Below are positions 43,644 to 64,000 of a DNA stretch of 64,000 nt, one piece after another. The notes below the pieces were generated by a model. It was not told where the DNA came from, did no database searches, and was given only the letters and a program-made list of their open reading frames with translations. Source of the DNA: Puniceicoccales bacterium Verruco_02 (lineage in GTDB: Bacteria > Verrucomicrobiota > Verrucomicrobiia > Opitutales > Oceanipulchritudinaceae); the NCBI GenBank assembly GCA_001604585.1, contig LVBW01000024.1, positions 1 to 64,000 of the forward strand, in the 5' to 3' direction. Numbering within the stretch: the first letter of the stretch is position 1; each line of letters opens with the position of its first letter. Position numbers and translations under genes: made by a program.

Positions 43644-45923
43644 CTACTCTGCCGGGGCAATATCGCCGTAGATAAGGCCACGCCCGTGCGTACCCACATA
43701 CACGCGGCCATAGGTCTGCATGTCGCCTGCTATCATCAGCAAGAGGCCCCACTGGTGGGCATCGTCGTTGATGCGCAGGTAGCTCTGCCCCACATCGTCG
43801 CTGCGGAATATGCCTCTCTGCCCGTCCACGGTGCCGATTATGTAAATAGACTCGTAGTCCGAGTCGGGAGCAGCCTTGCCAAAGCCGAAGCCGTGGATGT
43901 GCTCCACATGCGGCAGGCGGGTGAATGTCGCCCCGTCCGGGGCATGATACAGACCATCGGCAGAGGCTATCCAAAGGTCGCCCTCGCGTCCGGGCACCGC
44001 GTATATGCGGTCCTGCCCACCTCTGGCGTCACCCCTTACAACATCTCGCACGGGGAGAGCACCGGGCAGGGTGACATGCTCTGCAACGAAGCTGCGCCCG
44101 CCGTCCCGACTGCGGTACAGTTTGCGCGCAAATATGTCCAGAGCGTAGAATTTCTGCGGATGTACAGGGTCGGCCACAGCGCGCATCCCTTCTGGAAGCC
44201 CCTGCACGGGGCTCCAGCTCTGCCCAAAATCCGCACTCAGGTATGCGCCGCTGCGCTCTGGGGTCCAGACTATCGTGGAGCCGTCGGCGGCCATTGCCAC
44301 CGTGCCCCCGTGCGCCTTCTCAAAAGGGTTTGCGCCCGGCTGCCAGCTGGCCCCGCCGTCGCGGGACAGCCCTATGGCCGCCTTCTCGCCTTTGCTGGGG
44401 TGGCCAACGCGCGCGAGCAGCGCCTGGCTCTGCCATGCCATCGCTAGGCCCGAGGTGTTGTTGAAGCGCGGGTTGGAAAAGATGCCCTCCGGTTCGAAGC
44501 GGTCCAGATCGTCGTGGACAAAGCCCCCATAGTCGCCAATCGCGCTTATGACCGGCGCCCCTTCCGCGGGGCAGAGTATGTCCAGCGGCACCGATTCCTC
44601 CACGCCCACCGCGGCTGGGGTCCATAGGGTGCGTCCTCCGGGCAGGTCGGCCTCTGTGAGGTTAAATGTTTCCAGCCCGCCAAAGCCCGTTGTGTATATG
44701 CAGTGGTCGCTGTCGTGCGGGTCTATCTCCACGTCAAAGAGCCAGTGTATGTTCACCATCCCGTAGTAGGGAATCTTCGTGTAATCATAGTCCGCCGTGC
44801 GGTGTATGAGAGACTCCCAGCGTTTGCCCCCGTCCTTGGAGCGGAAGATCTCTTCCCCGCCGGGGAACCAGAAGGGCGTTGCCATCACTGTGCCGGGGCG
44901 CTGAGGGTCCACTGCAACGGATATGTAGCCGAAGTAGGTATGCTCGGGGTCGGGGATGCTGCCGCTGCGAACGGGGGTAATGTCCTCCCAATGGCCGCTG
45001 GCTGTGTCGTAGCGCCACACCTCGCCGTCGGTGGAATGGTGGGGGCCGGGGCTTGTGCCGTAGCTTAGGTAGAGCACCCCGTCGGCACCAAGATCTGCAT
45101 CGGTCGGGCGAAGGCGCGTGGGCTGACCGGGCACAGCGGCCCAGCTCCCGCCCCCGTCATGGGATACAAAGAGGTTCTCCTGTCCCATGAGCGACACAAG
45201 GGCATACACCGTGGAAGAGCGCCCCGATTCGTCCTCATTGGGAGCGTAGATAACGCGAATGATGCCCGAACCGGCCTGCCAGCGCAGCCACCCTTCCCTG
45301 TCCTTGGGCGCGAGGCCCTCGGGACTGCGCTCCATAAGGTCGGGGAATGTGGTCACGCGCTTCCATGTCGCACCGTAATCGTCACTGCGCAGAAGGCCGT
45401 CGTAACGGGTGCCCAAGAGGATCGTAGCGCCATTTAGCGGGTCCACGGCCATGCGCTCGCCATTGCCCCTGCCCGACTCGTTGCCGCCGAACTTCACGGG
45501 GATGCGCACCACGTCAAATGTTTTGCCACGGTCCGCCGAGCGCAGTATGGCCCCGTCGGGCACAACTGGCAGTGTGTAAGTGCCGCAGGCCATGTAGAGG
45601 CGGTCCGGATCGGATGGGTCAAGGGCTATGCTCTCCACCCCCATCAGGTTCAGGTCTGCATAAGAGAGCCAGTCAGTCAGAGGCTGCCATTCGCCATCGG
45701 CACTGTCGCGGCGGTAAGCGCCGCCCATGTCCGTGCGGGCATAGGCAAGGCCGGGCTGGCCGGGGTGAAAGATGAAGCCACAGATGAAACCGGCCCCGCC
45801 CATGCGGACGTTCTTCCAAGTGTAGGGAACGGCCGGGCTGCTCGGCTCTGCCCCGAGGGCGCAAATTGGCATTAGTACAGCGCCAGCCAGAGCCAGCGAA
45901 CGGGAAAAGTTCGTCAAATTCAT
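43644..45923 (-). CDS. Secreted GH74-like endo-xyloglucanase
   Basis: Signal peptide; RTDMGGAYRRD (candidate base Asp) and IGDYGGFVHDDLD (candidate acid Asp); repeated SxDGGxxW propeller motifs. Confidence 0.85.
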   Translation of the reverse strand: MNLTNFSRSLALAGAVLMPICALGAEPSSPAVPYTWKNVRMGGAGFICGFIFHPGQPGLAYARTDMGGAYRRDSADGEWQPLTDWLSYADLNLMGVESIALDPSDPDRLYMACGTYTLPVVPDGAILRSADRGKTFDVVRIPVKFGGNESGRGNGERMAVDPLNGATILLGTRYDGLLRSDDYGATWKRVTTFPDLMERSPEGLAPKDREGWLRWQAGSGIIRVIYAPNEDESGRSSTVYALVSLMGQENLFVSHDGGGSWAAVPGQPTRLRPTDADLGADGVLYLSYGTSPGPHHSTDGEVWRYDTASGHWEDITPVRSGSIPDPEHTYFGYISVAVDPQRPGTVMATPFWFPGGEEIFRSKDGGKRWESLIHRTADYDYTKIPYYGMVNIHWLFDVEIDPHDSDHCIYTTGFGGLETFNLTEADLPGGRTLWTPAAVGVEESVPLDILCPAEGAPVISAIGDYGGFVHDDLDRFEPEGIFSNPRFNNTSGLAMAWQSQALLARVGHPSKGEKAAIGLSRDGGASWQPGANPFEKAHGGTVAMAADGSTIVWTPERSGAYLSADFGQSWSPVQGLPEGMRAVADPVHPQKFYALDIFARKLYRSRDGGRSFVAEHVTLPGALPVRDVVRGDARGGQDRIYAVPGREGDLWIASADGLYHAPDGATFTRLPHVEHIHGFGFGKAAPDSDYESIYIIGTVDGQRGIFRSDDVGQSYLRINDDAHQWGLLLMIAGDMQTYGRVYVGTHGRGLIYGDIAPAE

Positions 45924-46067
45924 CGCTTTCCAATGGAGGGGTTATCGTGAAGCGTCGGGGGTTTGAAGACCAACACATTGTAACGTAATAGCGGGATGCG
46001 CAATTAACAAATGGCCGTGTCGAACAACTAAGGTGACCCAGAGGGCCTTCACCCAATGGGATAATAA

Positions 46068-46101
46068 AAGGGGCATGTCGAACTTGGCCGACATGCCCCT
46101 T
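46068..46101 (-). terminator. Rho-independent terminator of the TonB-dependent receptor gene
   Basis: Perfect 13-bp inverted repeat AAGGGGCATGTCG/CGACATGCCCCTT, 8-nt loop, T-rich on the minus strand. Confidence 0.85.
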
Positions 46102-46129
46102 GAAGCTAATCCTGACTTATGAGTCCAGA

Positions 46130-49100
46130 CTAGAAGTCGATGCTGGCGCTGAAGCGGTAGCTTATGCCGGGGGCATAGACGTAGCCGTAGGCCTTGGTGT
46201 CATCGGTCATGTTGTCCACGTTGAGGGCAACGCGCAGGGAATACTTGTCCTGAATCCTCGTCTCGTAGGAGACCATGCCGTTGAGGGTAATGCGCTCGTT
46301 GGTCCAGTATTCGACCAGCTCGCCGGAGCCGTCTGCCTTGAGGGCGATATTACCGCCAGCAAAGCCGGTGTACCAGCAACGGTTGTCCTCCCACTGACCG
46401 CCCAGACCCACGCTCCAGCCTTCAAGGCTGCTGCTAAGGTGCTTGAGCTGGTAGTTGGCCCAGATGGAGAGCGAGTTCTCCGGGCTGTCGTCCGCGCTCT
46501 TGCCGTAGTCGGGGATCGTGGCGTTGTAGGTGGAGGAGTCGGTCACGTCCGTGTACACATCCTTGGCCAGAAGCTGGGCATTGTAGGTGCCAAAGTTCGG
46601 GTCCGAAGCATACCACCAGCCTGCGGGCCAGTAGGGCGTCTTCACGAAGTTGTAGGTGCGGGACGTAATCTTGCGCGTGAGGTGCGAGAAGTTGAAGCGG
46701 AGCTGGAACTCGGGGATGGGGGTCCAGACAAACTGGCAGTCCCAACCCTTTGCCTCGTCGTCCATGGCCACCGATGCGCCGTTGCCGTCGGGGGCATTGC
46801 CGGTGCCGGTGGAACCGTCACCATAGCGGTAGGTTGCGCCCGATGTGTAGTAGTAGTTACCCTTCCAACCCGGGGCGGCATGAACACTGGCCATGAAGGC
46901 CGCCACGTCCGGCACGCTGTAGTTGACGAGCGGGAAGTAGGTGCTGCCCGTGTAGGCGGAGTTGTACACGTCCGTATTGGCCTGGGCCACGCCAAGGTCC
47001 GGCGGATAAACAGTCGGGTCCGCGCCTGCCTCCGGGTTGTTGCCCCAGTTCCAGAAGTTGTTGGCAAGCGTGCTGTTGTAACCGGTGAACGAGCTGCTGG
47101 ACGGGGCGATGTTCGACCCCGTGGCAACGTAGTTGTACACGTCGTTTATGAGCGGCCACCAGACAGGACCCCAGATGTTCTTGGCAACGGACAGGGCGTA
47201 GGCGGCATTGGCAGCCTTGGAACCCTTGCCATAGTCGGTATTCAGACCGTAGTACATCGCGTCCGGCGTGGCGTAGTAGAGCACCGTTGTGCTCGGCAGA
47301 GAGTCGTCGTAGCCCTTCACGCTGTTCTGGTAGTTGGACGGTGCCCACCAGAGGTAACGCGGCACGCCCTTGCGCTCGATCTTGAAGGCGCTTATCGTGC
47401 CGGAGAACTTGCCATCGGCCAGGTCGAACTTGATGCCCACCTCGTAGTTCTTGGCCTTGGAGGGAGCGAGCAGGTTGCCGTTGCCGTCGCGGTCGTTGTA
47501 GTAAGGCACAACACCGGTCGAATACACGCCAAACACCGAGAGCTGGTCTGTAAGCGCATAGCTAATGCCCACCTGCGGGCTGTATGCACTGGGCGCAGTT
47601 TCAGAGATGCGGCCCTGATACTCGGTATCGTGTGTGGTCTCGTATATGTATTTGCGAACGTTGCTCGCGTCCGAACGGTCCCAACGAACGCCGCCGATAA
47701 TGGTCAGCTTGTCCTTGAAGAACTGGCCCTGATACACGCCGTAGTAGCCAAGGTTCCACTGCTTGTCCACGGTGTTGTAGAGATGCTCGCGCGGGTTGTC
47801 CAAGGCCCCGTCGCCCTGCACGCCGTAAACGATGGGCGTAAAGTCGTAGGGGTTCTTGTAGCTGTAACGCTGATAGGCGTTGACGGGGTTTCCGCCGTAG
47901 GAATAACCGGGGCCGTACTGGTCGGACTCGGTCCTCTTCTGAGAGTACTGGGTGCCTGCCACGAAGGTATGGTTACCCCAAGTGCCGAGGTCCAGACGAT
48001 ACATCAGTTCGGCGCGGATCTGATCGTTCTTCTCGTTCTTGTCCACATCAACCCACTCGTAGCCAATGACGCCATTGGGATAGGAGGCGGGCGGAGGAGA
48101 ACCGACGGAGGACTCCTGCTGCTTGAAGTCGAAAACTTCGGCGAAAAGGACCGCTTTGCGGTTGGTCAGAACGTTGCCGTAGGCATCGGTATAGCTGTCG
48201 GGCAACACACCGTCGCGCAGCAGACCTGCCTGCACCTGACGAGTGTCGAAGGTAGCGTCCGAGTGCGAGTAGCCAACCTTGAAGATCATGTTTTCGATGA
48301 TCTTCTGCTCAAGGTCGGCAGAGAAGTTCATGTACGGACCCTTTTGGTAGGTGTCCTTGCCCGACCAGCGGAAGGTGCGGTTGTCCACGTTGTGGCCAAT
48401 GACCGTGCTTGTTTCGGGATCGTAGATGTCCGTCTGCCAGAGAGCGTCGCGACCGGCGGCGGGGGTGCCGTCGTTGGCGTTTGCACGCAGGTTCTGGAAG
48501 CCCACACCGACTTCCTTCTTATCTCCGTATTCAAAGCTCAGGTTGACCGTGCTGGTCTCGAAGGGCTTGAACTTGAGGGCCGTGTTGACCACCCAGTAGT
48601 CGTTCTTATAGAAGTCTGTGTAGTCCTCGTTGTGCTGCCAAGCGGCCGTTACGCGGATGGCTGGCTTGAACTTGGCAAGCCAGGAGCCTTCAGCGGCCAA
48701 GGGCATGTTTATGTCCATGTCGCCGCGCATCATGTTGTGGCTGCCCACCATCGTGCCGAAGTGGTACATCTCCCTCTCGAACACGGGCTTCTTGGTGATG
48801 TAGTTGACCACACCGCCGAAGTTGCCAATGCCGTAGAGAAGGGCCGAAGGGCCACGCAGAATTTCGACACGCTCGATATTGACAGAGTCCGCCGTGTAGT
48901 TGCGGCGGAAGCCGTCCTGCAAGTTGCTGTCGCTTGTAAAGCCGCGCATCTTGGAGGTGGACTCACCAGCCCTGCGGGTGACGCCGCGGGGGTCGTTGGC
49001 GCCAGCGCTCGATGGGTCTGTGTCCAGATCCGCAAAAGCGTCGGACTGGGACTGAAGCACGATGCCCGCAGAGTAGCGGAGCGATTCGCGAAGGCTGACA

Positions 49101-49366
49101 GAGCCGGTGTCCTGAATGAGCTTGCCGGTTATTACGTCAAGGTTCAGCGGGACATCCTTGATTGCCATGTTCAGGCGCGTGCCCGAAATGGAGTTCGCGG
49201 CCATATAGCCGACGTCCCTGGAGGTTTCTACGACGAAGGGAGACAGCTCGACGACGTTGTCGTCGCTGAGGCTTGCCTCTCTTGTTTGAGCGAACGCCGG
49301 GCTGGCTCCGAGGGCGAGTGCAGAGATGAGCACCAGCCCGCGTTTGCCGGGTATCCAGTTATTCAT
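46130..49366 (-). CDS. TonB-dependent receptor
   Basis: Signal peptide, DDNVVELSPFVVETSRDVGYMAANSISGTRLN plug start, VEILRGPSALLYGIGNFGGVVNYITKKP, C-terminal YRFSASIDF. Confidence 0.95.
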   Translation of the reverse strand: MNNWIPGKRGLVLISALALGASPAFAQTREASLSDDNVVELSPFVVETSRDVGYMAANSISGTRLNMAIKDVPLNLDVITGKLIQDTGSVSLRESLRYSAGIVLQSQSDAFADLDTDPSSAGANDPRGVTRRAGESTSKMRGFTSDSNLQDGFRRNYTADSVNIERVEILRGPSALLYGIGNFGGVVNYITKKPVFEREMYHFGTMVGSHNMMRGDMDINMPLAAEGSWLAKFKPAIRVTAAWQHNEDYTDFYKNDYWVVNTALKFKPFETSTVNLSFEYGDKKEVGVGFQNLRANANDGTPAAGRDALWQTDIYDPETSTVIGHNVDNRTFRWSGKDTYQKGPYMNFSADLEQKIIENMIFKVGYSHSDATFDTRQVQAGLLRDGVLPDSYTDAYGNVLTNRKAVLFAEVFDFKQQESSVGSPPPASYPNGVIGYEWVDVDKNEKNDQIRAELMYRLDLGTWGNHTFVAGTQYSQKRTESDQYGPGYSYGGNPVNAYQRYSYKNPYDFTPIVYGVQGDGALDNPREHLYNTVDKQWNLGYYGVYQGQFFKDKLTIIGGVRWDRSDASNVRKYIYETTHDTEYQGRISETAPSAYSPQVGISYALTDQLSVFGVYSTGVVPYYNDRDGNGNLLAPSKAKNYEVGIKFDLADGKFSGTISAFKIERKGVPRYLWWAPSNYQNSVKGYDDSLPSTTVLYYATPDAMYYGLNTDYGKGSKAANAAYALSVAKNIWGPVWWPLINDVYNYVATGSNIAPSSSSFTGYNSTLANNFWNWGNNPEAGADPTVYPPDLGVAQANTDVYNSAYTGSTYFPLVNYSVPDVAAFMASVHAAPGWKGNYYYTSGATYRYGDGSTGTGNAPDGNGASVAMDDEAKGWDCQFVWTPIPEFQLRFNFSHLTRKITSRTYNFVKTPYWPAGWWYASDPNFGTYNAQLLAKDVYTDVTDSSTYNATIPDYGKSADDSPENSLSIWANYQLKHLSSSLEGWSVGLGGQWEDNRCWYTGFAGGNIALKADGSGELVEYWTNERITLNGMVSYETRIQDKYSLRVALNVDNMTDDTKAYGYVYAPGISYRFSASIDF

Positions 49367-49535
49367 AGTTGGGATATTTGGTTAGCAACCCCAACCTCCC
49401 GAAAATTCGGACACAACGACACTGCGACATGGAACAATTGTCGCAGAAGCAATACAGAGAACGTGGACGCCTTGCATCCTTACTTGGGAGATTGGGGCAG
49501 AGTGAGTAGTTGAAGCCGGACAATCGCTAAAAACA

Positions 49536-49551
49536 GATTTAACGATAAATC
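49536..49551. promoter_or_regulatory. LacI-type operator-like palindrome, copy 1
   Basis: GATTTAACGATAAATC. Confidence 0.7.
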
Positions 49552-49567
49552 CCGGCGACGTTCGCAA

Positions 49568-49583
49568 CATTTAACGCTAAATC
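49568..49583. promoter_or_regulatory. LacI-type operator-like palindrome, copy 2
   Basis: CATTTAACGCTAAATC; on the minus strand preceded by TTGACC-N5. Confidence 0.72.
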
Positions 49584-49764: not shown

Positions 49765-50853
49765 TCAGGGGACGAGGCGCGGCTCTGCCGGAGGCTTGGA
49801 TAGCGAGCCTCGCAAAACAACTGTGGTGTCGAACACTACGGAGTTCACCAGCTCATCGCCGCCCTTGCCACGCATTGCGTCGATACGCCTCATCATGACC
49901 TCCACGGCCCTCGCCCCCATAGCCCGCAGAGGCTGACGCACAGTGCATAGCTGGGGCACCGTGGTGCGGGCGGCAATAGTGTCGTCAAACCCGGCTATGG
50001 ACACATCGTCGGGGATGCGGATACCCGCTGACGCGAGGGCCTCCATGCAACCTATGGCAATGGCATCGTTTGCGCAGAAAATGGCATCCGGCAGGGGCTT
50101 CCCCTTGTTGGCGGACAGCCACGCATTCATCGCGCGGCAACCCTCGGCAGCGGCAAAGTTTGTAACAACAAGCAAATCGGGGTCGGGCACGATGCCAGCC
50201 TCGCGCAGGGCGGAGAGGTAGCCGCTTATGCGGCGCTCCGGGCCGACAAGGCCGCGAGGGCCGGACACATGCATGATGCGCCTGTGCCCCATCGCAATCA
50301 TGGCCTTGACCATCTCCTTTGCCCCCCGCTCCTCGTTGCTTTCGATGTTGACGAATGCCTCGGACTCGGTGTTGGCGTGCAGGGCCACGAAGGGAGTGTG
50401 ATGCGGAAGCATGGCGGCCAGCTCCTGATTGAAAAGCGGCGCAACGAGTATCATCCCGTCGATGCGCCCGTCGCACATGCCGCAGACCTTGGCCATGTCC
50501 TCGCTCCAACTGCGGAAGGTGAACACGGTGGCGTTCTGGGCGTGGCGGCTCGTGGCCTCGATTATGCCGTTGAATATCTCCACAAAGTAGTTGTTCAACT
50601 CCTCGTCGGCCCACACAACGGACACGCCGATAGTGTTCATGCGCCGCTTGACCAGGGCGCGGGCCGCAACATTTGGCCGATAACCCAAAGCCTCGGCCGC
50701 CTCGATTATCTTGGCACGGGTCTGCTCCGATATGCGCGCAGAAGTGCGCGTCTCGTTGAGCGCGGCCGACACCGCCATCGCCGAGACACCGGCAGCACGC
50801 CCGACATCGGCCAAAGTGGCCGCACGGACGTTCTTCTTCTTCCTCACGTTCAT
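49765..50853 (-). CDS. LacI-family transcriptional regulator
   Basis: ATLADVGRAAGVSAMAVSAALN HTH, YRPNVAARALVKRRMNTIGV, periplasmic-binding-like sensor domain. Confidence 0.95.
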   Translation of the reverse strand: MNVRKKKNVRAATLADVGRAAGVSAMAVSAALNETRTSARISEQTRAKIIEAAEALGYRPNVAARALVKRRMNTIGVSVVWADEELNNYFVEIFNGIIEATSRHAQNATVFTFRSWSEDMAKVCGMCDGRIDGMILVAPLFNQELAAMLPHHTPFVALHANTESEAFVNIESNEERGAKEMVKAMIAMGHRRIMHVSGPRGLVGPERRISGYLSALREAGIVPDPDLLVVTNFAAAEGCRAMNAWLSANKGKPLPDAIFCANDAIAIGCMEALASAGIRIPDDVSIAGFDDTIAARTTVPQLCTVRQPLRAMGARAVEVMMRRIDAMRGKGGDELVNSVVFDTTVVLRGSLSKPPAEPRLVP

Positions 50854-51149
50854 AGGGACATACACAAGGGTGGGGACAGGCCCAAGGACAGGCAGGTTCC
50901 AAGAGCGCATTTGAAAACGCTTTTCAGCCACTTGCAAGCAAGCTCAGGAACAAGAAAGACATATACCTCAACAAGAATGACACCGATAATCACACCATAT
51001 CAAGCCTTCATCAGTCCAATCAACGCAAAGAACAGCGGAACAAGAATGCAGGAGCGAACACGAAACTCACATCCGCAGGAATACGCGCAAAGAATTTCAG
51101 GCGATTCCTGAAAAGGAAAATATGATAGACAAATCTGCTTGACTAGAGC

Positions 51150-51165
51150 GATTTAACGTTAAATC
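51150..51165. promoter_or_regulatory. LacI-type operator-like palindrome, copy 3 (perfect)
   Basis: GATTTAACGTTAAATC, a perfect 16-bp palindrome, preceded by TTGACT-N5. Confidence 0.78.
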
Positions 51166-51306: not shown

Positions 51307-54090
51307 GTGCAATCCTCCAGCATTCCATCCCTTAAGAAGCACGACTGCGGCATCCTCGTCCGCACCGGCTCCGGTGAACTCATCAGTCTGGACATCTTTT
51401 CAGACAGCATAATCGGCGTCCGCGCAACGAGCCTCCCGGAGCTGCCAAGTAACGACAGCTTCATGGTCGTGGAAGAAAACCGCGAAGCCTGCGCCTTCGA
51501 GTGCGGCGAGGAAAACGGCTCCTTCTGGCTCTCGACAGCCAAGGTGAAGGCAAGCGTCTGCGCCGACTGCGGCCAGGTCAGCTTCTTCGACAAGGACGGC
51601 AAGGCCATCCTGCGCGAAGTTGAGGGCGGGCGCAAGATGACGCCTGTCAACGAAATGGGCGAAGACACCTTCCGCGTGGAGCAGAAGTTCCACTACGACA
51701 ACGTGAACGTGCTCATGGGGCTTGGCGGCCATCAGGACGGCATAGCCAACTACAAGGGCCACGACTGCAACCTTACCCAGTACAACTGCATCGACATTGT
51801 CACCTACTTCTCGACCGACGCCAACTACGGCCTTCTCTGGGACAACGACTCTATCACCAAGTTCGGCGATCCGCGCGAGCACGGCAAACTCGGCAGCGTC
51901 TTCAAGCTCTACAACGAAGACGGCGTCGAAGGCGGCCTGACGGCCCGCTACTACGGCGACAGCGCCTTTGCCTACACACAGGTGAAGCGCGACGAGGACC
52001 AGATCGAATACTCCTTCTTCGAGGAACGCCCCTACGCGCCCAAGGAGTTCAACTTCGACAAAGGCTCCATCAAGTGGACCGGCTTCATCGAAGCACCCGA
52101 GGACGGCGTTTACAAGCTGCGCAGCTACGGCTCGCACTACATCAAGGTGACAATCGACGGGGTGGAATACGTCAACAAGTGGCGCCAGAACTGGATGCCT
52201 TGGCAGAACCTCTTCGAGATCCCCATGAAGGCGGGCCAGAAGCTTCCTGTCACTGTCGAGTGGAACTCGAACGGCGGCTTTTGCGCTCTTCAGGCCCTGT
52301 CCCCCTCCTGCCCCTGCTACAAGGAAGAGATCGCCCTTGAAAGCGAAGTGGGCGAACAGATCCGCTACTACTTTATTTACGGCGAAAGCGTGGACGAGCA
52401 GATCGCCGGTTACCGCAAGCTGACGGGCAAGGCCACGATGCTGCCGCGCTGGACGATGGGCCTCTGGCAGAGCCGCGAGCGTTACGAAACGCAAAAAGAC
52501 CTGCTGGATGTCTGCGCAGAGTTCCGCAAGCGCGAGATACCGCTGGACTGCATAGTGCAGGACTGGCAGTTCTGGGGGCCGGACGGCTGGGGCACGCAGG
52601 ATTTCGACCCCAAGCGCTTCCCCGATCCCGACGGCATGATACGGGACATCCACGAGAAGTACAACGCCAAGCTGCTCATCACGGTGTGGGCCAAGTTCAA
52701 CAAGCACACCGAGCAGTTCAAGCACATGTATGAAAAGGGCTGGATATACAAAAAACAGCCCGACACGGACATCCCCGACTGGCTGGGCTACCCCTACGGC
52801 TTCTACGACGCCTTCAACGAGGACGCGGGCCGCTACTTCTGGGATCTTGCCAACGAAAAACTCTTCAAGAACGGTGCCAGCAACGGCGCCGACGCATGGT
52901 GGCTTGACGCGACAGAGCCGGACATCGTCTCGAACGTGGCGGTAAAGCTCCGCAAGGAGGACATGAACCCCACGGCCAAGGGCAGCGGAGCACGCGTTTA
53001 CAACGCCTTCTCCATCAACCAGTGCCGCTGGGTGTATGAAGGCCAGCGCAAGGCCGACCCGACAAAGCGCGTGACGATCCTCACCCGCTCTTCCTACGCA
53101 GGCCACCAGCGCTACGGCGCGGCCACTTGGAGCGGCGACGTGGCCAGCCGTTGGGAAGACCTCAAAAAGCAGATCCCCTGCGGGCTTAACTTCTGCGCAT
53201 CGGGCATTCCCTACTGGACGACGGACATCGGCGGCTTCGCTGTCGAGGCCCGCTACGAAAAGCCCATCGGCGAGGACGTGGAGGAGTTCCGCGAGCTTCA
53301 GATGCGCTGGTACCAGTTCGGTGTCTTCAACCCCTTCTTCCGCGTTCACGGCCAGTTCCCCTTCCGCGAGGTGTTCCGCCTCGTGCCCGAGGAGCACCCC
53401 GTTTACAAGGCGATGGTCGCCTACAACAAGCTGCGCTACCGCCTGCTGCCCTACCTCTACTCGATGGTGGGTGCTGTCACCTTGGACGACTACACGATGC
53501 TGCGCGCCCTGTTCATGGACTTCCCCGGCGACGCCAATGTGCGCGACATCGAGGACGAGTTCATGTTCGGCCCCGCCTTCCTCGTCGCCCCGGTTACGGA
53601 CTACAAGGCCCGCAGCCGCAAGGTTTACCTGCCCGCAGGTGCCACATGGTATGACTTCCACACGAACAAGCAGTACCTGGGCGGTCAGACCATCACGGTC
53701 GAGGCCCCGCTCGAAGAGGTGCCGCTCTTTGTGCGCGCCGGAAGCATCATCCCCTTCGGCCCCGAGGTGCAGTACGCCAACGAGAACCCGGACGGCCCGG
53801 TGCAGCTTCGCGTCTATCCCGGTGCAGATGGCCAGTTCGGCATCTATCAGGACGAGGGCGACGGCTACGGCTACGAAAAGGGCGACTATTCACGCAGCCT
53901 GCTACAGTGGAACGACGCCGCCTCGACGCTGACAATCGGCGCTCGCATCGGCTCCTTCCCCGGCATGAACCCCAAGAGGCAGGTGTCCGTGGTCCTTGCC
54001 GCAGAGGGCAAGGCCGCTGGCAAGGAACTGTCCACCACGGTGGATCAGTCCCTGACCTACTCGGGCGAAGCTGTCACTGTTAAGCTTTAG
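51307..54090 (+). CDS. GH31 alpha-glycosidase (alpha-xylosidase-like) with PA14-like insert
   Basis: WWLDATEPD nucleophile motif, [26 protein letters not shown] acid/base motif; PA14-like block [10 protein letters not shown]...[29 protein letters not shown] start; no signal peptide. Confidence 0.9.
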
Positions 54091-54104
54091 TCGATTACTT
54101 TCAC

Positions 54105-54239: not shown

Positions 54240-56747
54240 ATGAAGCACTTACTCCGCCCCGCCCTGCTCCTTTCACTGGCCTTTGTCGGCATTCTGACTG
54301 CCTGCGAAAAGAAAGCTGATAATGCGCCCCGTTCCCAGCTGCCTGATTCTCCCTTGAGCGAAATAAACGGCATGATCGAAATGCCCGCCCCGGCAGCGGA
54401 CCTCATTTCCGAAGGGCTGCCGATAGGCAACGGGCGCATGGGAATGCTGCTCTCGGGCGGCATCGACAGGCAAAGTAACGCCATTTGCGAGGACAGCGTA
54501 TGGTCGGGCTGGCAAAACGACTTTGCCGACAAGGCCGAGGCGGCGGAATATGTAGAGCCAATTCGCGAACTGTTCAGGCAGGGCAAAATCAGCGAGGCGC
54601 AGGATCTGATCAACAAGACCCAGATCAGCCGCATGGACGACGGGCAGGGCCACGGCACCTACGAGGCCTACGGCACTTACGAAATGCTCGCGCGGCTGGA
54701 AATCGAGACAAACCTCGATGCGTCCAAAGCCACAGATTACCGACGCTCTCTGGCAATGAATGTGGGGCTTGTACGAACACGTTTTTCCATCGACGGAGTG
54801 GCTTACTGGCGCGATGCCTTCGCCAGCCGACCGGACGAAGTTCAGGTCATGCACTTCGAGGCCAGCAAAACCGGCCATATCACGTTCTCCGCCACCCTAT
54901 CCCGCCCGGACACAAACGCCACAGTCACGGCGGACGGGAAGGACGCGCTGCTTCTCTCTGGCTGGAACCTCGACAAGGACGGCAGGCCCGCACTCGAATA
55001 CGCCTGCCGCCTCGGTGCCACGGCCAAGGGCGGAAGCGTGGAAGTGAAGGACGGCAAACTCGTCTTTACCGGCTGCGACAAGGTGACGCTCTACATCACG
55101 GCGGGCACCAATTACAAGGGCATGAAAAGCTGGCCCGACTACCTAGACAAGAGCGGCGCCCACCTGTCCCGCACAAAGGAGCAGTTGGAAGCGGCTCGCG
55201 CCAAGGATTTGGCCATACTAGGTAAGGCACATGTGAAGGATTTTGAAAGCCTCTACAATAGATGCGGCATGTATCTGGATCTGGCGAAAGAAGAATACTC
55301 CTCATATGCCAAGGATGCGAACGATACCCCCGCCCGCCTCGACGCCTTCAAAAAGACCCTCGCGGACAACAGCCTCATCTGCACCTACTTCAACTTTGGC
55401 CGCTACCTGCTTATTTCCAGCTCCCGCGAGGGCGACCTGCCCGCGAACCTGCAAGGCATCTGGACGGTCAACTTCTATGAAAAGGACAAGGGCCGCTGGA
55501 ACTACTACACGCCCTGGAACGGCGACTATCACGCCAACGTCAACATCCAGATGAACTACTGGCCCGCGTTCAAGGCAAACCTCGCCGACTGCGCAGGCCC
55601 CGTTTACGACTTTATCGAAGCCTTGCCCGGACCGGGCGCTGTCACGGCCAAAGTCCAGCACGGCTGCGAAGGCTGGACCACGCACACTATGAACAACGTC
55701 TGGGGCTACACCTCGCCGGGCTGGGAGGCGAGCTGGGGCCACTTCCCAATGGCAGGCCCCTGGATGGCCACACATATCTGGGAAGCCTACGCCTACACGC
55801 TCGACAAGGACTTTCTCTCCCGCATGTGGCCTACGCTCAAAGGCTCCGCCGAGTTCATCCTAAGCTGGATGATCCCCGACGAGAACGGCCAGCTAGTCTC
55901 CGGCCCGTCGGAGTCCCCCGAAAACCGCTTCCGCCTGCCCGATGGCAAGATAGGCTACTTCTGCATGGGGCCGACGATGGACCAGCAGCTCGCCTCGCAG
56001 CTACTAAGCGAAACGCTGCGCAGCGCAAAGGTGCTGGGCATAGAGGACGCCTTCACAGCCCGCTGCGCCGAGGCGCTCGCCCTCATCCGGCCAACGCAGA
56101 TCGGCCCCGACGGGCGCATAATGGAATGGTCAGAACCCTTCGAAGAAGTCGAGCCGGGACACCGCCACACCTCCCACCTTTTCGCCGTATATCCCGGCTA
56201 CGACATCACACCCGAAACGACGCCAGAGCTGGCCGCCGCCGCCCGCAAGAGTCTGGAATACCGCATATTCCACGGCGGCGGCTACACCGGCTGGAGCCGC
56301 GCCATGATGATAGGCCAGTGGGCACGTCTGAACGACGGAGTGAAGGCCTACGAGAACCTTCAGGCCCTGCTGGCAGAGTCCACCCTGCCGAACCTCTTCG
56401 ACACCCACCCGCCCTTCCAGATCGACGGCAACTTTGGCGCAACGGCGGCCATTATCGAGATGCTCATGCAGAGCCAGCTATTGCCCGATGGGACAGTGCG
56501 CATCAAGCTGCTCCCCGCCCTGCCCGGCCAGTGGCCCACGGGGAAAATCGAGGGCATCCGCGCACAGGGCGCGGTCACTGTGGACATCGAATGGCGGGAA
56601 GGGGCGCTTAAATACGTAATCCTTTGTGCGGACAAGGACATCGAAGCCGAACTGAACCTTGGCCACCTGCGCGGCAAAGTCAGCCTAAGAGCGGGCCAGC
56701 CGCAGAAGCTCGACGCAGCCTTCAGCCCCCTGCAAGGCTGCAAATAG
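54240..56747 (+). CDS. GH95 alpha-L-fucosidase-like lipoprotein
   Basis: Lipobox [77 protein letters not shown]. Confidence 0.9.
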
Positions 56748-56818
56748 TAAGCATAAAACGACGCCCCGCAGAGGCGTCCCTACCCCTGCACAGACAACAA
56801 CCTGCACAACGTGACTTT

Positions 56819-59650
56819 ATGAAAGCAAGCCTACTTACGATACCCCTTATGCTTGCGGCCAGCGCCGCCAGCGCCGCACTATCCACACAAACCCTCAACG
56901 AAGGCTGGCGCTTCAGCCTCGGCGAACAGCCAGCCTTGGTCACCACCCCCGGCTACGACGACAGCACATGGCAGAGCGTGCGCGTACCGCACGACTGGGC
57001 CATATCCGGCCCCTTCGACCCCGATACACACGGATACTCCGGCAAGCTGCCCTGGCGCGGCGTTGGCTATTACAGAACGACGCTCGACCTCTCCGCGCTC
57101 GAAAGCGGGCAACGGGTGTATCTCGACTTCGACGGGGTGATGGCCAAGAGCAAGGTGTACGTAAATGGCCAGCTCGCGGGCGGCTGGGACTACGGCTACA
57201 ACAGCTTCCGCGTCGATGCCACACCCTACATAATCCCCGGCGAGGCCAACTCGCTGACCGTCGTGGCCGACACGCGCGAAGGAGTCTGGGACACGCGCTG
57301 GTACCCCGGCGCGGGCATATACCGCAAAGTGGTCCTGCAAATCGACTCCCCCCTGCACATCGCGCACTGGGGCCAGAAGATTACGCACAACGGCGACGAA
57401 CTCTCCGGGCGCAAGCCATCGGTCCTTCGCATCGGTACAAGGCTCGAAAACCACGATAGCGCCGATCGCGAAGTGGAGGTGGAGACCGTCCTCATAAGCC
57501 CCTGCGGCAAGGAAGCAGGCCGCAGCACAAGCCGCGTCAAAGCGCCAGCCAAAGGCGATGTGAGCGCCGCCAACGCCCTGCCTCTTTCCCAGCCCGTCCT
57601 CTGGGACATAGACAACCCCGCCCTTTACACGGTCCAGACCATCGTGCGCAGCGGCAGCGAGGTGCTCGACACGACGAGCATCCGCTACGGCATACGCACC
57701 TTTGCCTTCACAGCCGACGACGGCTTCCACCTCAACGGCCGCCGCGTGCAGCTCTACGGCGTGAACCTGCACCACGACCTTGGCCCCATCGGCGCCGCCT
57801 TCAACCGCCGCGCCGCACAAAGACAGCTTCAAATCATGCAGGAAGCAGGCGTCAACGCCCTGCGCACAAGCCACAACCCGCCAGCACCCGAGGTGCTCGA
57901 CCTTTGCGACGAGATGGGCATCCTCGTCTGGGACGAGGTGTTCGACAAGTGGAACAACACGGCGGGCCGCTTCGAGGGCGAGCCGGACTTGTACGAATTT
58001 GGCCGCAGGCAGGTGCGCAACATGGTCCTGCGCGACCGCAACCACCCAAGCATCGTTGTCTGGAGCGTGGGCAACGAAATCCTAGAAGGGGGCAGCGAGG
58101 ACATCACGCCCGAGCGCACCGCCTACATGGTATCTTTCGTCAAGGAGTTCGACCAGAGCCGCCCCGTGGGCATGGCCAACCACATCCCCGGCATGAGCGA
58201 GAAGCCCAACTTCGAGGCGCTCGACCTCACAGGCTGGAACTACGCGCGCCGCTACTGGCGGATGCACGAGCTGTACCCGGAAAAGCCCATCATTTACTCC
58301 GAGAGCGCGTCCGCAGTGTCCACCCGCGGCTACTACGAGCCTGAACTGCCAGAGCGGCGCACGGACCGCAACCTGAAGACCCTTCAGGTGTGCTCCTACG
58401 ACCTGAACAGCGCCGACTGGTCCGACATAGTTGACGTGGAATTCGCCCTCATGGAAAAGGACCGCTTCGTATCGGGCGAATTCGTGTGGACAGGCATCGA
58501 CTACCTTGGCGAACCAACGCCCTTCGACGCCGAGGCGCGCAGCTCCTACTTCGGCTTTGTTGACCTTTGCGGCCTGCCCAAGGACCGCTTCTACCTTTAC
58601 CGCAGCCACTGGAGGCCCGAAGTGCCCACCGTCCACATCCTGCCGCACTGGAACTGGCAGGGCCGCGAAGGAAAGAACGTGCCCGTCTTCGTTTACACAA
58701 ACGGACACAGCGCGGAGCTGTTCCTTAACGGCAAAAGCCTTGGCAAGCGCGTGAAGGGCGAGGTGCCCCCCCGCGCCGCAACAATCCCCATCGCCTCCGC
58801 CACTGCCACAAGCAGCGCAAAGGGCCACGCCCCCGCTCTGGCCGCCGATGGCGACGAGGACAGCCTCTGGCGGGCAGCAGAGGCCGGGGCCAGCCTCACG
58901 CTCGACCTTGGCAAGGCGGCCAAGCTAGGCTACATCGCCTTTTCCTTCGAGAACAAGGAGAACCTCTACGCATACACGCTGGAAGCTTCCAGCGATGGCC
59001 GTGCATGGAAAAAGCTGACCGACAAGCAGAGCAGCGAATTCCCCCTCTACAGCGGCCCGCGCGAGAAGTACCACACCGTGGACACCACAGCCCGCTACCT
59101 GCGCCTGCGCTTTGGCGAATGCCGCGATGGCAACCTGCCCGCGGTCCGCAGCGTGAAGCTCTACCCCGAGGTGGTGGAGCCGGAATACTACGATGTCAGC
59201 TACCAGTACCGCCTGCGCTGGAACCAAGTAGCCTACGAAGCGGGAGAACTCAAAGCCGTTGCCTACGACAAGAGCGGGGCCAAAATTGGCGAGGCAGTCG
59301 TGCGCACGGCGGGTAAGCCCGCAAAGCTGCGCCTTTCCCCGGACAAGAGCACTCTCGACGACAGCGGCGATGACATGTCCTTCATAGTCGTGGAGGCTCT
59401 GGACAAGGACGGCAACCTTTGCCCCCTTGCCGACCACATGGTGGAATTCTCCATCGAAGGAGCCGGAGAGTTGGCCGGAGCCGACAACGGCAACCCGATG
59501 TGCTTCGAGTCCTTTGCCGACAGCCGCCAGAGCCTGTCCTATGGCAAGGCAGTGCTTGTTATCCGCGCCACCAAGGCGGGGGAAATCAAGGTCAAAGCCA
59601 GCGCCGAAGGACTTGAAGATTCCTGTGTTACGCTTTACGTACGCCCCTAG
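56819..59650 (+). CDS. Secreted GH2 (beta-galactosidase-like) with internal F5/8C-like domain
   Basis: Signal peptide; GH2 sandwich VPHDWAISGPFD, WSVGNEILEGG acid/base, PIIYSESAS nucleophile; discoidin-like segment PIASATATSSAKGHAPALAADGDEDSLWRA...ARYLRLRFGE. Confidence 0.9.
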   Translation: MKASLLTIPLMLAASAASAALSTQTLNEGWRFSLGEQPALVTTPGYDDSTWQSVRVPHDWAISGPFDPDTHGYSGKLPWRGVGYYRTTLDLSALESGQRVYLDFDGVMAKSKVYVNGQLAGGWDYGYNSFRVDATPYIIPGEANSLTVVADTREGVWDTRWYPGAGIYRKVVLQIDSPLHIAHWGQKITHNGDELSGRKPSVLRIGTRLENHDSADREVEVETVLISPCGKEAGRSTSRVKAPAKGDVSAANALPLSQPVLWDIDNPALYTVQTIVRSGSEVLDTTSIRYGIRTFAFTADDGFHLNGRRVQLYGVNLHHDLGPIGAAFNRRAAQRQLQIMQEAGVNALRTSHNPPAPEVLDLCDEMGILVWDEVFDKWNNTAGRFEGEPDLYEFGRRQVRNMVLRDRNHPSIVVWSVGNEILEGGSEDITPERTAYMVSFVKEFDQSRPVGMANHIPGMSEKPNFEALDLTGWNYARRYWRMHELYPEKPIIYSESASAVSTRGYYEPELPERRTDRNLKTLQVCSYDLNSADWSDIVDVEFALMEKDRFVSGEFVWTGIDYLGEPTPFDAEARSSYFGFVDLCGLPKDRFYLYRSHWRPEVPTVHILPHWNWQGREGKNVPVFVYTNGHSAELFLNGKSLGKRVKGEVPPRAATIPIASATATSSAKGHAPALAADGDEDSLWRAAEAGASLTLDLGKAAKLGYIAFSFENKENLYAYTLEASSDGRAWKKLTDKQSSEFPLYSGPREKYHTVDTTARYLRLRFGECRDGNLPAVRSVKLYPEVVEPEYYDVSYQYRLRWNQVAYEAGELKAVAYDKSGAKIGEAVVRTAGKPAKLRLSPDKSTLDDSGDDMSFIVVEALDKDGNLCPLADHMVEFSIEGAGELAGADNGNPMCFESFADSRQSLSYGKAVLVIRATKAGEIKVKASAEGLEDSCVTLYVRP

Positions 59651-59698
59651 CCTGTGCATACTCTGTCCGTGGCCTGTCCAACCCCGCCCGGACCTTAA

Positions 59699-61111
59699 GT
59701 GAGACGCTCCTTACTCAACGCCATCAGCAGCCTGCTGTCCCTGCCGGTCAGCCTACTGGCCCTGCTTGCGCTTGCGCTTCTTTCCTCCGTGCTCGTGTTG
59801 ATGCGCGGGGGAAAGAAGCAGGAGGGTCTGCTTTTCTGGAGCTTTGCCAGAGAGCACCTGCGCGCCTACGTGTCGCAGACAGAGAAGTGGAACCGCGCCC
59901 ATCCCGACTATCAGGTGACTCTGGCCTACATATCCGAACAGGCTCTGACCGACCGCATGATGGGCAGCTTCTTTGCCGGGACGCCCAGCGCAGACATGAT
60001 CGAGATGAACCAGGGGCCGAACGTCAACGCATGGCGAGGGCCGGACGAGGCCACTGGCTACCGCGACCTCGCCCCCCTGCTGCGCCGCGACGGACTGCTC
60101 GACAAGATTAACCCGCCCTCAATCTCACCGTGGACCAGGCAAGGCCGCATCTACGGCCTACCGCACGATGTTCACCCCGTGCTGCTCTGCTACCGGGCGG
60201 ACATTCTGGAAGCGGCGGGCATCGACATGGAAAGCTTGGACACATGGGACGAGTTTTTCGACGCTCTGGCCCCGCTCTGCGTGGATCTGGACGGGGACGG
60301 CTACCGCGACCGCTACGCGCTGGAGCTGTCCGAAACGATGCACTACATGGTCGTAATGCTGGTGGATCAGGCTGGCGGCGTGCTCGTGGACGACGAGGAC
60401 AACGTGCTCATGGACAGCCCCGTCGTGGCCGATGTGCTGGCCCGGCTGGCCCGCCGGGCGGCGGCGCGCGACAAGCTGACGGCAGACATCCCTGTTTTTA
60501 CAGCCGCCGCGGCGCAGCCTCTGCTCAAAGGGCAGGTGCTGGCGTGGCTCTGCCCGGACTGGCGCGTGGCCAACATGTACGACACAGCCCCCGGTCTCGC
60601 TGGCAAGGTGAAGCTGATGCCCCTGCCCGCATGGGAAGAGGGCGGCAGGCGCACAAGCGTTCTAGGAGGCACAATGCTGGGCCTGCCCAAGGTGACGCGC
60701 GGGGGCAATGAAACGGCCGAAGCATCGTGGCAGTTCGCCAAAGATCTGTACTTTTCCAAGGAAACGGCGGAGCTTCTCTTTCGAGAGTCGGGAATAGTCA
60801 CCCCCATACGCGACTACTGGAAGCTGCCCGTGTTCGACGAACCAAGCGACTACTTCTGCGGGCAGCCCTTCGGGCGCATGTTCATCGAGCAGGCCCCTGA
60901 TGTGCCCATGCGAAGCAGCTCGCCCTACCTGCAACAGGCAAGCGAAGAGCTGCTCTCCAGCTTCACCCGCCTTGTCAGCTACGCAAACGCGAACGACCCC
61001 GACGAGCTGCCCGCCCTGCGCATGGAGGCCCAGCGCCTGCTGGCATTGGCAGCAAAGAAAGTGCGTCTGATGGTCGATCGGAGCGCATTCCGGGAAGGGA
61101 GCCTCCGATGA
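59699..61111 (+). CDS. Carbohydrate ABC transporter substrate-binding protein, N-terminally membrane-anchored
   Basis: GTG start; N-terminal TM LSLPVSLLALLALALLSSVLVLM; family 1 SBP features; ATGA overlap with permease. Confidence 0.85.
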   Translation: MRRSLLNAISSLLSLPVSLLALLALALLSSVLVLMRGGKKQEGLLFWSFAREHLRAYVSQTEKWNRAHPDYQVTLAYISEQALTDRMMGSFFAGTPSADMIEMNQGPNVNAWRGPDEATGYRDLAPLLRRDGLLDKINPPSISPWTRQGRIYGLPHDVHPVLLCYRADILEAAGIDMESLDTWDEFFDALAPLCVDLDGDGYRDRYALELSETMHYMVVMLVDQAGGVLVDDEDNVLMDSPVVADVLARLARRAAARDKLTADIPVFTAAAAQPLLKGQVLAWLCPDWRVANMYDTAPGLAGKVKLMPLPAWEEGGRRTSVLGGTMLGLPKVTRGGNETAEASWQFAKDLYFSKETAELLFRESGIVTPIRDYWKLPVFDEPSDYFCGQPFGRMFIEQAPDVPMRSSSPYLQQASEELLSSFTRLVSYANANDPDELPALRMEAQRLLALAAKKVRLMVDRSAFREGSLR

Positions 61112-61995
61112 GCCGCCGCCGCAGAGCCGTTGCCCCCTGGGTGCCATACTTTTTCATAGCGCCCTTCCTCTTGAGCTTTGCCCTGTTCACGCTCTACCCG
61201 CTAATCCAGTCGGTAATCCTGACTACGAGGCAGAGCTTCGGCCCCGGCTACGACCATTACGTGGGACTGGCCAACTTCAGCAACATACTCTCTGATGCCA
61301 AGTTCTGGGTCGCGCTCAAGAACACCCTCACTTTCGCCATAATCTCGGTAGGGATCCAGATGCCCCTTTCGCTGGGGCTAGCCCTGCTGATGAACCAGCC
61401 TTGGCTTAGGGGACGGTCCCTGTTCCGCCTTGCCATATTCTCACCCGCACTCGTCGGCTCGGTCTTCGTTGGCATAATGTCGGCCATAGTGTTCCAGAAA
61501 CGCACGGGGATGCTCAATCAGGTGCTGCACAGCCTGTTCAACTTTGACCCGGACTTCCCTTGGCTTTCAACGCACCTTATGCCTGCCATGATCATAGCCT
61601 CGCTCTGGATGTGGACGGGCTTCAACATGATCTACTTTCTTGCCGCCCTCCAGAACGTGGACCGAGAGCTTGTCGAGGCCGCGTCGATCGACGGGGCCGG
61701 GCCGGTGCAGAGATTCCTGCACATCACCCTGCCGACGATAAGGCCCGTGGCGGGCTTTGTGACGCTTATTTGCATGATCGCGAGCCTTCAGATTTTCGAA
61801 CTTCCCTATCTGATGCTGGCAAGGCTCAACTCCGGGCCGGAAGACAGGGGCCTGACCGTTGTCATGTACCTGTACCAGACTGGCTTCAACATCGGCGACC
61901 TTGGCTATGCAAGCGCCATTGGCTGGATACTGGCCATATTGCTCATTTCGCTCTCCATCCTGTACCGTCGCCTCAGCAGGGGGGAAGCCGTATGA
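61108..61995 (+). CDS. Carbohydrate ABC transporter permease (MalF-like)
   Basis: VPYFFIAPFLLSFALFTLYPLIQSV; EAA loop LVEAASIDGAGPVQRFLHITLPTIRP. Confidence 0.93.
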   Translation: MSRRRRAVAPWVPYFFIAPFLLSFALFTLYPLIQSVILTTRQSFGPGYDHYVGLANFSNILSDAKFWVALKNTLTFAIISVGIQMPLSLGLALLMNQPWLRGRSLFRLAIFSPALVGSVFVGIMSAIVFQKRTGMLNQVLHSLFNFDPDFPWLSTHLMPAMIIASLWMWTGFNMIYFLAALQNVDRELVEAASIDGAGPVQRFLHITLPTIRPVAGFVTLICMIASLQIFELPYLMLARLNSGPEDRGLTVVMYLYQTGFNIGDLGYASAIGWILAILLISLSILYRRLSRGEAV

Positions 61996-62861
61996 AGCCG
62001 CGCAGCAAATCCCTTACGTTAAACTTGGCCAAGGCGCTCAATTATGCGCTCCTGCTCCTCGCCTGCCTTGTCACCCTTACGCCCTTTTACTGGCTTCTTG
62101 TTGCGGCATTTAAGAAGAGCGAGGACTTCTTCGCGCACACCTTCCTGCCCAAGGGCGATGGCTTCCTCGGGGTGGCTTGGTACAAGCTCACACTGGATAA
62201 TTTCTCGCGAATTTTCACAGAGCTGGACTTTGCCAACAACATCCTTAACTCCGTGTTCCTTGCCAGCAGCACGGCCGTCATATCCACCATCACGGCGGCA
62301 ATGGGCGGCTACGCGCTGGCCAAGTACGAGTTCCGTGGGCGGGACTTTATCATGGGCATAGTCCTCGCCGCGCTCATCATTCCCGCTCCCCTCTTGCTCG
62401 CCCCCGGCTATCAGCTCCTTTACCACCTGCACTTACTGGATAGCTACGGGGGCCTGCTGCTCCCGGCTGTGGCCCCGGCCTTCGGCGTGTTCCTATTCCG
62501 GCAGGCCATGCTCAACAGCGTGCCCCAGAGCCTGCTCGACAGCGCCCGGATAGACGGCTGCGGAGAGCTTCACTGCTTCTGGGTCATAGTGCTGCCCCTT
62601 GTGCGGCCAATGGTGGGCGCGTATCTCTTAATCACCTTCCTTGGCAGTTGGAACAACTTCATCCAGCCGCAGATAATCCTTCAGGACGCGGACAAGTTCC
62701 CCCTCTCGGTGGCCCTAGCCAGTCTTCAGACTGCCTACCGTGCCGAGTACGGCATGATTACGGCGGGCACTCTTGTTTCGATAGCACCCCTTGCCGCGCT
62801 GTTCCTGCTCCTGCAAAAGGAATTTATTAGCGGTCTTACCTCCGGCGCAGTCAAGGGCTGA
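61992..62861 (+). CDS. Carbohydrate ABC transporter permease (MalG-like)
   Basis: Internal start MKPRSKSLTLNLAKAL with ATGA overlap; EAA loop LLDSARIDGCGELHCFWVIVLPLVRPM. Confidence 0.93.
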   Translation: MKPRSKSLTLNLAKALNYALLLLACLVTLTPFYWLLVAAFKKSEDFFAHTFLPKGDGFLGVAWYKLTLDNFSRIFTELDFANNILNSVFLASSTAVISTITAAMGGYALAKYEFRGRDFIMGIVLAALIIPAPLLLAPGYQLLYHLHLLDSYGGLLLPAVAPAFGVFLFRQAMLNSVPQSLLDSARIDGCGELHCFWVIVLPLVRPMVGAYLLITFLGSWNNFIQPQIILQDADKFPLSVALASLQTAYRAEYGMITAGTLVSIAPLAALFLLLQKEFISGLTSGAVKG

Positions 62862-62901
62862 CATGACACCCTATTCACACCCCATTCCAAACAATTGACC
62901 A

Positions 62902-64000
62902 ATGGCAAGCGTCACGCTCCAGAACCTTGTGAAGAACTACGGCGATGCGAAGCGGCCTCTTCTGGCCGTTAAGGGCATAAATCTGGAAATACGCGACCGC
63001 GAGTTCATGGTGTTCGTCGGCCCTTCGGGCTGCGGCAAGAGCACGACTCTGCGCATGATAGCGGGCCTTGAGGACATTAGCTCCGGCCATGTCCTCATCG
63101 AGGGGCGGAAAATGAACGACGTGCTGCCCAAGGATCGCGACATAGCGATGGTGTTCCAGAACTACGCCCTGTATCCGCACATGAGCGTGTACGACAACAT
63201 GGCCTTTGCGCTGAAGCTGCGGCACTTCCCGGCGGCGGACATTCGCCAGCGGGTACTCTCAACGGCGGCCACTCTGGGCATCGAAGAGGAACAACTTAAG
63301 CGCCTGCCGCGGACTCTTTCGGGCGGGCAACGCCAACGCGTGGCCCTTGGAAGAGCCATAGTGCGCAGCCCCAAGGTCTTCCTCTTTGATGAGCCTTTGT
63401 CCAACCTCGACGCCAAGGCCCGCGTCTCGATGCGTGCCGAGATCGCCAAGCTGCACGATCGACTACAGGCAACCATGATCTACGTCACCCACGATCAGGT
63501 CGAGGCGATGACGATGGGAGAGCGAATCTGCGTGATGAACGAGGGCGAGATCGTGCAGGTGGACGAACCGATGGCCATATACAACCACCCGGTCAACATG
63601 TTCGTGGCGGGCTTCATAGGCAGTCCGCCCATGAACTTCATCCACGGACACATAGCGACTGTCGAAGGCAGGGCGCGCTTTGTGGAGGACAACGAGGATA
63701 TGGACGCGCTGCGCTTCGACATAGGCGAGCGCCTTTCGCTGCGTACGGAGGCATGGCGGGACCGCCCCGTGGTGCTGGGCATCCGCCCGGAGGACATTTA
63801 CGACCACCGCCGCTGCACGGCCAGCCAACCTTCGAGCGGTCAATACGCGAGGGTGGAAATTTCCGAGCCGATGGGTTCGGAGACTTACCTGTATCTCAAC
63901 ACGGGCGCGCATCCGCTAGTGGCCCGCATGGCCAGCAACGACCGCTACCAGACAAACGAGCAGGTGCATCTGCGAATGGACCTGGCCAAGGCGCACTTTT
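62902..64000 (+). CDS. Sugar ABC transporter ATP-binding protein (MsmX/UgpC-like), truncated at window end
   Basis: MASVTLQNLVKNYGD, GPSGCGKSTTLRMIAGLE, LSGGQRQRVALGRAIV, FLFDEPLSNLDAKAR, GIRPEDI; open frame runs off the window and is missing from the ORF track. Confidence 0.93.
   Translation, partial: MASVTLQNLVKNYGDAKRPLLAVKGINLEIRDREFMVFVGPSGCGKSTTLRMIAGLEDISSGHVLIEGRKMNDVLPKDRDIAMVFQNYALYPHMSVYDNMAFALKLRHFPAADIRQRVLSTAATLGIEEEQLKRLPRTLSGGQRQRVALGRAIVRSPKVFLFDEPLSNLDAKARVSMRAEIAKLHDRLQATMIYVTHDQVEAMTMGERICVMNEGEIVQVDEPMAIYNHPVNMFVAGFIGSPPMNFIHGHIATVEGRARFVEDNEDMDALRFDIGERLSLRTEAWRDRPVVLGIRPEDIYDHRRCTASQPSSGQYARVEISEPMGSETYLYLNTGAHPLVARMASNDRYQTNEQVHLRMDLAKAHF

Follow-up and report, generated by a model that had tools for sequence, protein, structure and literature searches.

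How would a bacterium of the order Opitutales (Verrucomicrobiota) divide the breakdown of xyloglucan between its compartments when its genes for the task include a TonB-dependent receptor (TBDR) and a sugar ABC transporter and no SusD, and how would it keep these genes under common control? The question is raised by a locus of Puniceicoccales bacterium Verruco_02, found in a stretch of 64,000 nucleotides (hereafter the window) which is positions 1-64,000 of the 117,557-base contig LVBW01000024.1 in a genome of 2.7 Mb. From gene content, family matches, the presence or absence of export signals, and a shared conserved operator, all of which can be read in the DNA, we infer a substrate, an order of steps, transporter ligands, and repression with its inducer. 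The best explanation of the whole, to which we give a probability of roughly 0.6, is a two-compartment divergon for xyloglucan use, repressed by its own LacI at GATTTAACGTTAAATC, with ABC import and a share taken by a GPH symporter. Specifically, i) GH74 would cut the xyloglucan backbone extracellularly; ii) the TonB receptor would carry the oligosaccharides into the periplasm; iii) the lipoprotein-type GH95 would take off fucose there and the exported GH2 galactose; iv) the XXXG-type core would pass the inner membrane via the CUT1-type ABC system, while the co-regulated GPH symporter would handle perhaps smaller products; and v) in the cytoplasm, the PA14-GH31 would strip xylose in turns with a beta-glucosidase (GH3 or GH1) that has no signal and is encoded elsewhere.

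The locus has two divergent wings, with LacI, TBDR, and GH74 on the minus strand and GH31, GH95, GH2, a solute-binding protein (SBP), two permeases, and an ATPase on the plus strand. An earlier reading of the window from its letters and open reading frames (the original prediction) had described these genes as contiguous, and all are where it had put them; they are listed here with the hairpin, operators, and TTGAC element found in addition:

43644..45923, minus strand: GH74 endo-xyloglucanase with signal peptide (PDB match, catalytic Asp pair)
46068..46101, minus strand: terminator-like hairpin between TBDR and GH74 (14 bp stem, T-rich tail)
46130..49366, minus strand: TBDR, predicted outer-membrane port for xyloglucan oligosaccharides (Pfam Plug and barrel above cut-off)
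49536..49551, no strand: LacI-type operator GATTTAACGATAAATC upstream of TBDR (1 mismatch)
49568..49583, no strand: second operator upstream of TBDR, on the minus strand GATTTAGCGTTAAATG (2 mismatches; TTGAC-N6 before the site)
49765..50937, minus strand: LacI-family repressor, predicted regulator of both wings (Pfam LacI and Peripla_BP_3)
51139..51143, plus strand: TTGAC, a -35-like element six bases ahead of the operator
51150..51165, no strand: perfect 16-bp palindromic LacI-type operator GATTTAACGTTAAATC in the LacI/GH31 divergent gap
51307..54090, plus strand: GH31 alpha-xylosidase with PA14 insert, GTG start, no signal peptide (PDB matches, PA14, motifs)
54240..56747, plus strand: GH95 alpha-L-fucosidase with lipoprotein-type signal (Pfam GH95, PDB 2rdy/7kmq)
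56819..59650, plus strand: GH2 beta-galactosidase (GalA/GalB-like) with F5/8 type C domain and signal peptide
59699..61111, plus strand: sugar ABC SBP with N-terminal membrane anchor, no lipobox (SBP_bac_1)
61108..61995, plus strand: ABC permease 1, MalF/UgpA-type (BPD_transp_1)
61992..62861, plus strand: ABC permease 2, MalG-type (start 61992 set by frame; kept in G118)
62902..64000, on to contig position 64029, plus strand: ABC ATPase, MalK/UgpC-type by sequence

The likely start of LacI is internal (MNVRKKK...). Genes on the opposite strand (a HAD-type hydrolase and an ATP-grasp-like gene, both named by eye) come after the ATPase, and the locus therefore ends with it. The nearest named relatives of the GH31 belong to metagenome-assembled genomes labelled Opitutales and Puniceicoccales, which puts the organism in Verrucomicrobiota.

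Xyloglucan is very probably the substrate, as had been proposed, judging from the matches of GH74, GH31, and GH95 to solved xyloglucan enzymes. The protein first called GH74-like matches endo-xyloglucanases in the PDB over its full length (best 7kn8, E=3e-152, phmmer), with scores far above those for reducing-end-specific exo-enzymes, and keeps both catalytic Asp residues (in ARTD and SAIGD). GH31 matches alpha-xylosidases with a PA14 insert (7kmp, E=1e-252; BoGH31A 5jou; 2xvg), keeps the motifs WWLD and TWSGD, and has its own PA14 insert by Pfam; GH95 matches 2rdy and 7kmq and keeps the catalytic Asn/Asn/Glu/Asp motifs; and GH2 is GalA/GalB-like, yet falls under the curated cut-off for either name. 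We take 7kn8, 7kmp, and 7kmq to be enzymes of the Xanthomonas xyloglucan utilisation locus (XyGUL) from their names, neighbouring entry codes, and PMC8245568, and among the PDB matches these presumed Xanthomonas structures rank first for GH74, first for GH31, and second for GH95. The His in GH95 at a position where His or Thr might have told fucose specificity is present here and was left unused, since that position does not separate fucose from L-galactose preference (PMC8245568).

Export signals, which we called from hydropathy by eye and with a 12-residue window rather than a trained signal predictor, suggest where each step would take place. The signal of GH95 is of the lipoprotein type, signal peptides are seen on GH2 and GH74, and GH31 has none; no in-frame start lies upstream of the window GH31 after the preceding stop, and the GH31 genes of two other genomes of the genus (L002, L003) likewise start at GTG without an export signal, making GH31 signal-less in all three. 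Six GH31 relatives from other genera (L044-L049) carry hydrophobic export signals right before the homology region, the signal in G040 being weaker than the others. Together, the signals on GH95 and GH2 and their absence from GH31 support the proposed split, with periplasmic trimming of fucose and galactose and cytoplasmic removal of xylose, and may mark a traceable evolutionary step in which an exported alpha-xylosidase became cytoplasmic. In G118, one of the other two genomes of the genus, GH95 (L002:12796-14949) carries after its signal peptide EEEVTLSPFVPNKETETGYQAKPAIAGT, which is like the start of the window TBDR, VVELSPFVVETSRDVGYMAANSISGTR; the enzyme looks as though the N-terminus of a receptor had been fused onto it.

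Co-regulation of both wings, also part of the original prediction, is supported by a palindrome of the GATTTAACGTTAAATC type before each of them, as a perfect copy in the LacI/GH31 gap and as two variants before TBDR. The window holds 3 matches at <=3 mismatches where 0.09 would be expected; the 2.7-Mb genome holds 5 sites at <=2 mismatches, of which 3 are in the locus and 1 lies before a GPH symporter gene, and a reversed-pattern control gave 0. When the LacI/GH31 gaps of the three genus genomes are aligned, the operator and the TTGAC six bases ahead form an unbroken block in diverged sequence, and the TBDR promoters of two genomes have identical TTGAC-operator spacing; no consensus sigma-70 promoter was found near the operators, and only this fixed-spacing TTGAC was noted. 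GH74-TBDR lies on another contig in G118, still with two operators before TBDR, which argues for a regulatory link and not an accident of neighbourhood. The pattern had been derived from the window and the genomes of its genus in advance of the scan of other genera, where sites with 2-3 mismatches turned up before GH74, GH31, YicI, or LacI in 5 of 13 loci (0.1 expected, first-order Markov), and 264 kb of sugar-ABC control loci held 0 at <=3 mismatches. LacI homologues beside GH74 in three of these genera have a nearly unchanged DNA-binding domain. As in other LacI regulons, a palindrome with a central CG stands before the regulated genes and is kept between genomes; LacI would repress at the palindrome and be released by a sugar inducer. 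The operator can mark xyloglucan genes in Opitutales genomes, including unlinked ones (GPH symporter, YicI, TBDR-GH74). One copy with 1 mismatch in the window's genome (G000:C32:33037-33052; L127:9038) was rejected as a regulon site and is left unexplained: it has lost the central CG, and the genes on either side, for a flavodoxin and a sigma-54 response regulator, are unrelated, with no xyloglucan link seen.

The original prediction had set the lack of a SusD-like lipoprotein against the SusC/SusD of Bacteroidetes loci. None is indeed present at the locus, and SusD_RagB (PF07980) has no match anywhere in the 2.7-Mb genome; this is the rule in the order, where 4 of 273 genomes have SusD, and SusD-free TBDR loci for xyloglucan have been published from Xanthomonas (PMC8245568) and Cellvibrio (PMC4285296). 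Of that interpretation, substrate, compartment split, and co-regulation are supported by sequence, the absence of SusD falls as an argument for novelty (as does the place suggested for the beta-glucosidase, see below), and the interest of the locus rests on the compartment split and the regulon. The genome has six ExbD genes, and in G118 TBDR and GH74 are found together in a different, unlinked setting. In two other genera of the order, GH31 stands beside a TonB receptor (L047:9188-14928 in G172; L048:6325-12337 in G013), in L047 with an operator-like site that closely precedes GH31, in the gap on the side of the receptor gene.

Two routes across the inner membrane are predicted, ABC and GPH, of which GPH alone is shared throughout the genus. 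The symporter, which the original prediction could not see, is a second candidate and more conserved than the ABC system: its gene follows the operator in each of the three genus genomes, the third (G105) included, with 2 mismatches in the window's genome. In G105 the operator also precedes a YicI-type alpha-xylosidase, a type not found in the window's genome. E. coli yicJI pairs a GPH symporter with the YicI alpha-xylosidase, and this logic recurs behind the operator in G105. G139, which belongs to the same family, has a compact xyloglucan cluster (L052:4868-13688) in which genes for GH74, a YicI alpha-xylosidase, a PA14-GH3, and a GPH symporter adjoin, without TBDR or ABC and with an operator-like site at 7156. 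As for the ABC system, the SBP has an orthologue in G118 (75%), a weak match to the arabino-oligosaccharide SBP 6rjy, and no close relative of known ligand; its fold was discarded as a ligand clue (single-sequence model, pLDDT 38.4). SBPs here (59699-61111) and in L099-L111 have an N-terminal membrane anchor without a lipobox, and most related SBP-permease-permease loci, unlike the window, have no adjacent ATPase.

The other two genomes of the genus differ in what they retain. G118 has LacI-GH31-GH95 on one contig and GH95-GH2-SBP-permease-permease-ATPase on another, and since both contigs end inside GH95 continuity is likely, not proven; G105 keeps GH74-LacI-GH31-GH95 in a locus without GH2 or ABC genes. 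GH2 and ABC, both present in the window's genome (G000) and in G118 and both absent from the G105 locus, thus look like a single block gained or lost together, the direction not being settled by three genomes.

Several of these observations, and some others, weigh against the reading that we prefer. At the cut-offs applied, neither the SBP nor the TBDR of the window has a match in G105; this genome combines a signal-less GH31 and the operator with no SBP match, and a cytoplasmic GH31 therefore does not need the ABC system. SBP relatives at 38-46% identity occur in loci without GH74 or GH31, beside other genes. The SBP has no specific relative of known ligand and no match in G105, and the ABC system remains a putative route for the trimmed oligomer. 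GH74 lies beyond the hairpin and lacks a separate operator here; the hairpin is conserved in G118, where both sides of its stem show differences. It may reduce the expression of GH74 compared with TBDR, or it may end the TBDR transcript, and in the latter event GH74 would be left without a known operator. The beta-glucosidase, too, appears to be outside the predicted regulon. It had been expected beyond 64 kb, where no GH3, GH5, or GH29 is found among the open reading frames listed for the next 16 kb, up to contig position 80,000; candidates sit elsewhere in the genome, namely a signal-less GH3 split over two contig ends (C34/C92) sharing 37 identical residues and a signal-less GH1 that scores above the curated cut-off for GH1 beta-glucosidases, besides two more GH3 genes that are exported. 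The GH3 and GH1 genes were rejected as regulon members, the fetched loci, some of them with short upstream DNA, holding no operator at <=4 mismatches. The genome also has a xylose isomerase gene, which like the ExbD genes and the beta-glucosidase candidates speaks for the preferred reading.

Could the GPH symporter (YicJ/XylP-like) be the main inner-membrane route, for the same substrate and in the same regulon, with the ABC system importing galactosides or another glycan? We consider this unlikely, yet it would fit the symporter behind the operator in all three genomes, G105 without an SBP match among them, the YicI-type enzyme behind the operator there, the G139 symporter gene within its GH74-YicI-GH3-GPH cluster with an operator-like site, and the joint occurrence of GH2 and ABC in G000 and G118 with neither at the G105 locus. 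It fits less well with the ABC genes directly after GH31-GH95-GH2, an order kept in G118, with a cytoplasmic PA14-GH31, which suggests entry of larger oligosaccharides, or with the 2 mismatches in the operator of the GPH gene in the window's genome; moreover, characterised GPH carriers take mostly di- or small saccharides.

Decidedly improbable is a periplasmic site for all trimming, xylose removal included, with the ABC system importing monosaccharides or small products: GH31 relatives are exported elsewhere in the order and in Proteobacteria such as Cellvibrio and Xanthomonas (PMC4285296, PMC8245568), but the three same-genus GH31 genes start at GTG without a hydrophobic signal, and that of the window has no upstream in-frame start. 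Hardly any weight goes to another target, such as host mucin or fucosylated galactan, for which GH74 and GH31 would be minor; GH95, GH2, and sugar ABC systems do occur in many pathways, and GH95 is only moderately similar overall to known fucosidases, but GH74 and PA14-GH31 are xyloglucan-specific among characterised enzymes and have a regulatory site in common across the order.

The LacI-repressed two-compartment divergon would be a hybrid of two described xyloglucan strategies, its outer half resembling Xanthomonas and Cellvibrio and its inner half Ruminiclostridium cellulolyticum and Anaerocellum bescii, with defining features of each lacking. Like the Xanthomonas XyGUL (X. citri XAC1768-1777 region; PMC8245568) it has a TBDR without SusD, GH74, GH31, GH95, and predicted trimming after the outer membrane; that locus has two TBDRs, GH35 instead of GH2, an acetylesterase, an MFS transporter, and periplasmic trimming, whereas GH2, the ABC cassette, the LacI repressor, and a signal-less GH31 are found only here. 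The Cellvibrio japonicus XyGUL (PMC4285296) is alike in its TBDR, GH31 (PA14), GH95, and beta-galactosidase without SusD, and differs in GH35, a locus without GH74, measured periplasmic galactosidase and fucosidase, and no reported ABC system. Thus the TBDR, GH31, GH95, and beta-galactosidase of this type are present without SusD in the window, and its GH35 and exported GH31 are not. The R. cellulolyticum locus (PMC4780118) and A. bescii Athe_2052-2054 (PMC12710961) have an oligosaccharide-type ABC importer and a cytoplasmic GH31, paralleled here by an SBP and two permeases near a predicted cytoplasmic GH31; these Gram-positive systems have no TBDR, no ATPase in the locus, and a cytoplasmic galactosidase, in contrast to the signal peptide of the GH2 here, and R. 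cellulolyticum (PMC4780118) further has a GH42 galactosidase, GH3 in the cluster, and two-component control rather than LacI. The Bacteroides ovatus XyGUL, to which PMC4780118 refers, is alike in GH31, GH2-type galactosidase, and TonB-dependent outer-membrane import; it has a SusC/SusD pair, and since the window's genome has no SusD the locus is not a polysaccharide utilisation locus of the Bacteroidota kind.

We wish to stress that the broader proposal is tentative, and that we put it slightly short of an even chance: a Gram-negative two-compartment breakdown of xyloglucan with a dedicated ABC system for the XXXG core, which GH31 signal loss within one genus and a gained GH2-ABC block would have made possible, under an order-wide LacI regulon. 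Neither a TBDR-plus-ABC xyloglucan locus nor a Verrucomicrobiota LacI xyloglucan regulon was found in the open-licence literature searched, which is not proof of priority.

At 40646-42868 lies a gene for a dehydrogenase-like protein (by eye, from its N-terminus) with a long low-complexity tail rich in Arg, Glu, and Asp, of which G105 has a shorter relative of 711 amino acids (L129:2128-4263).

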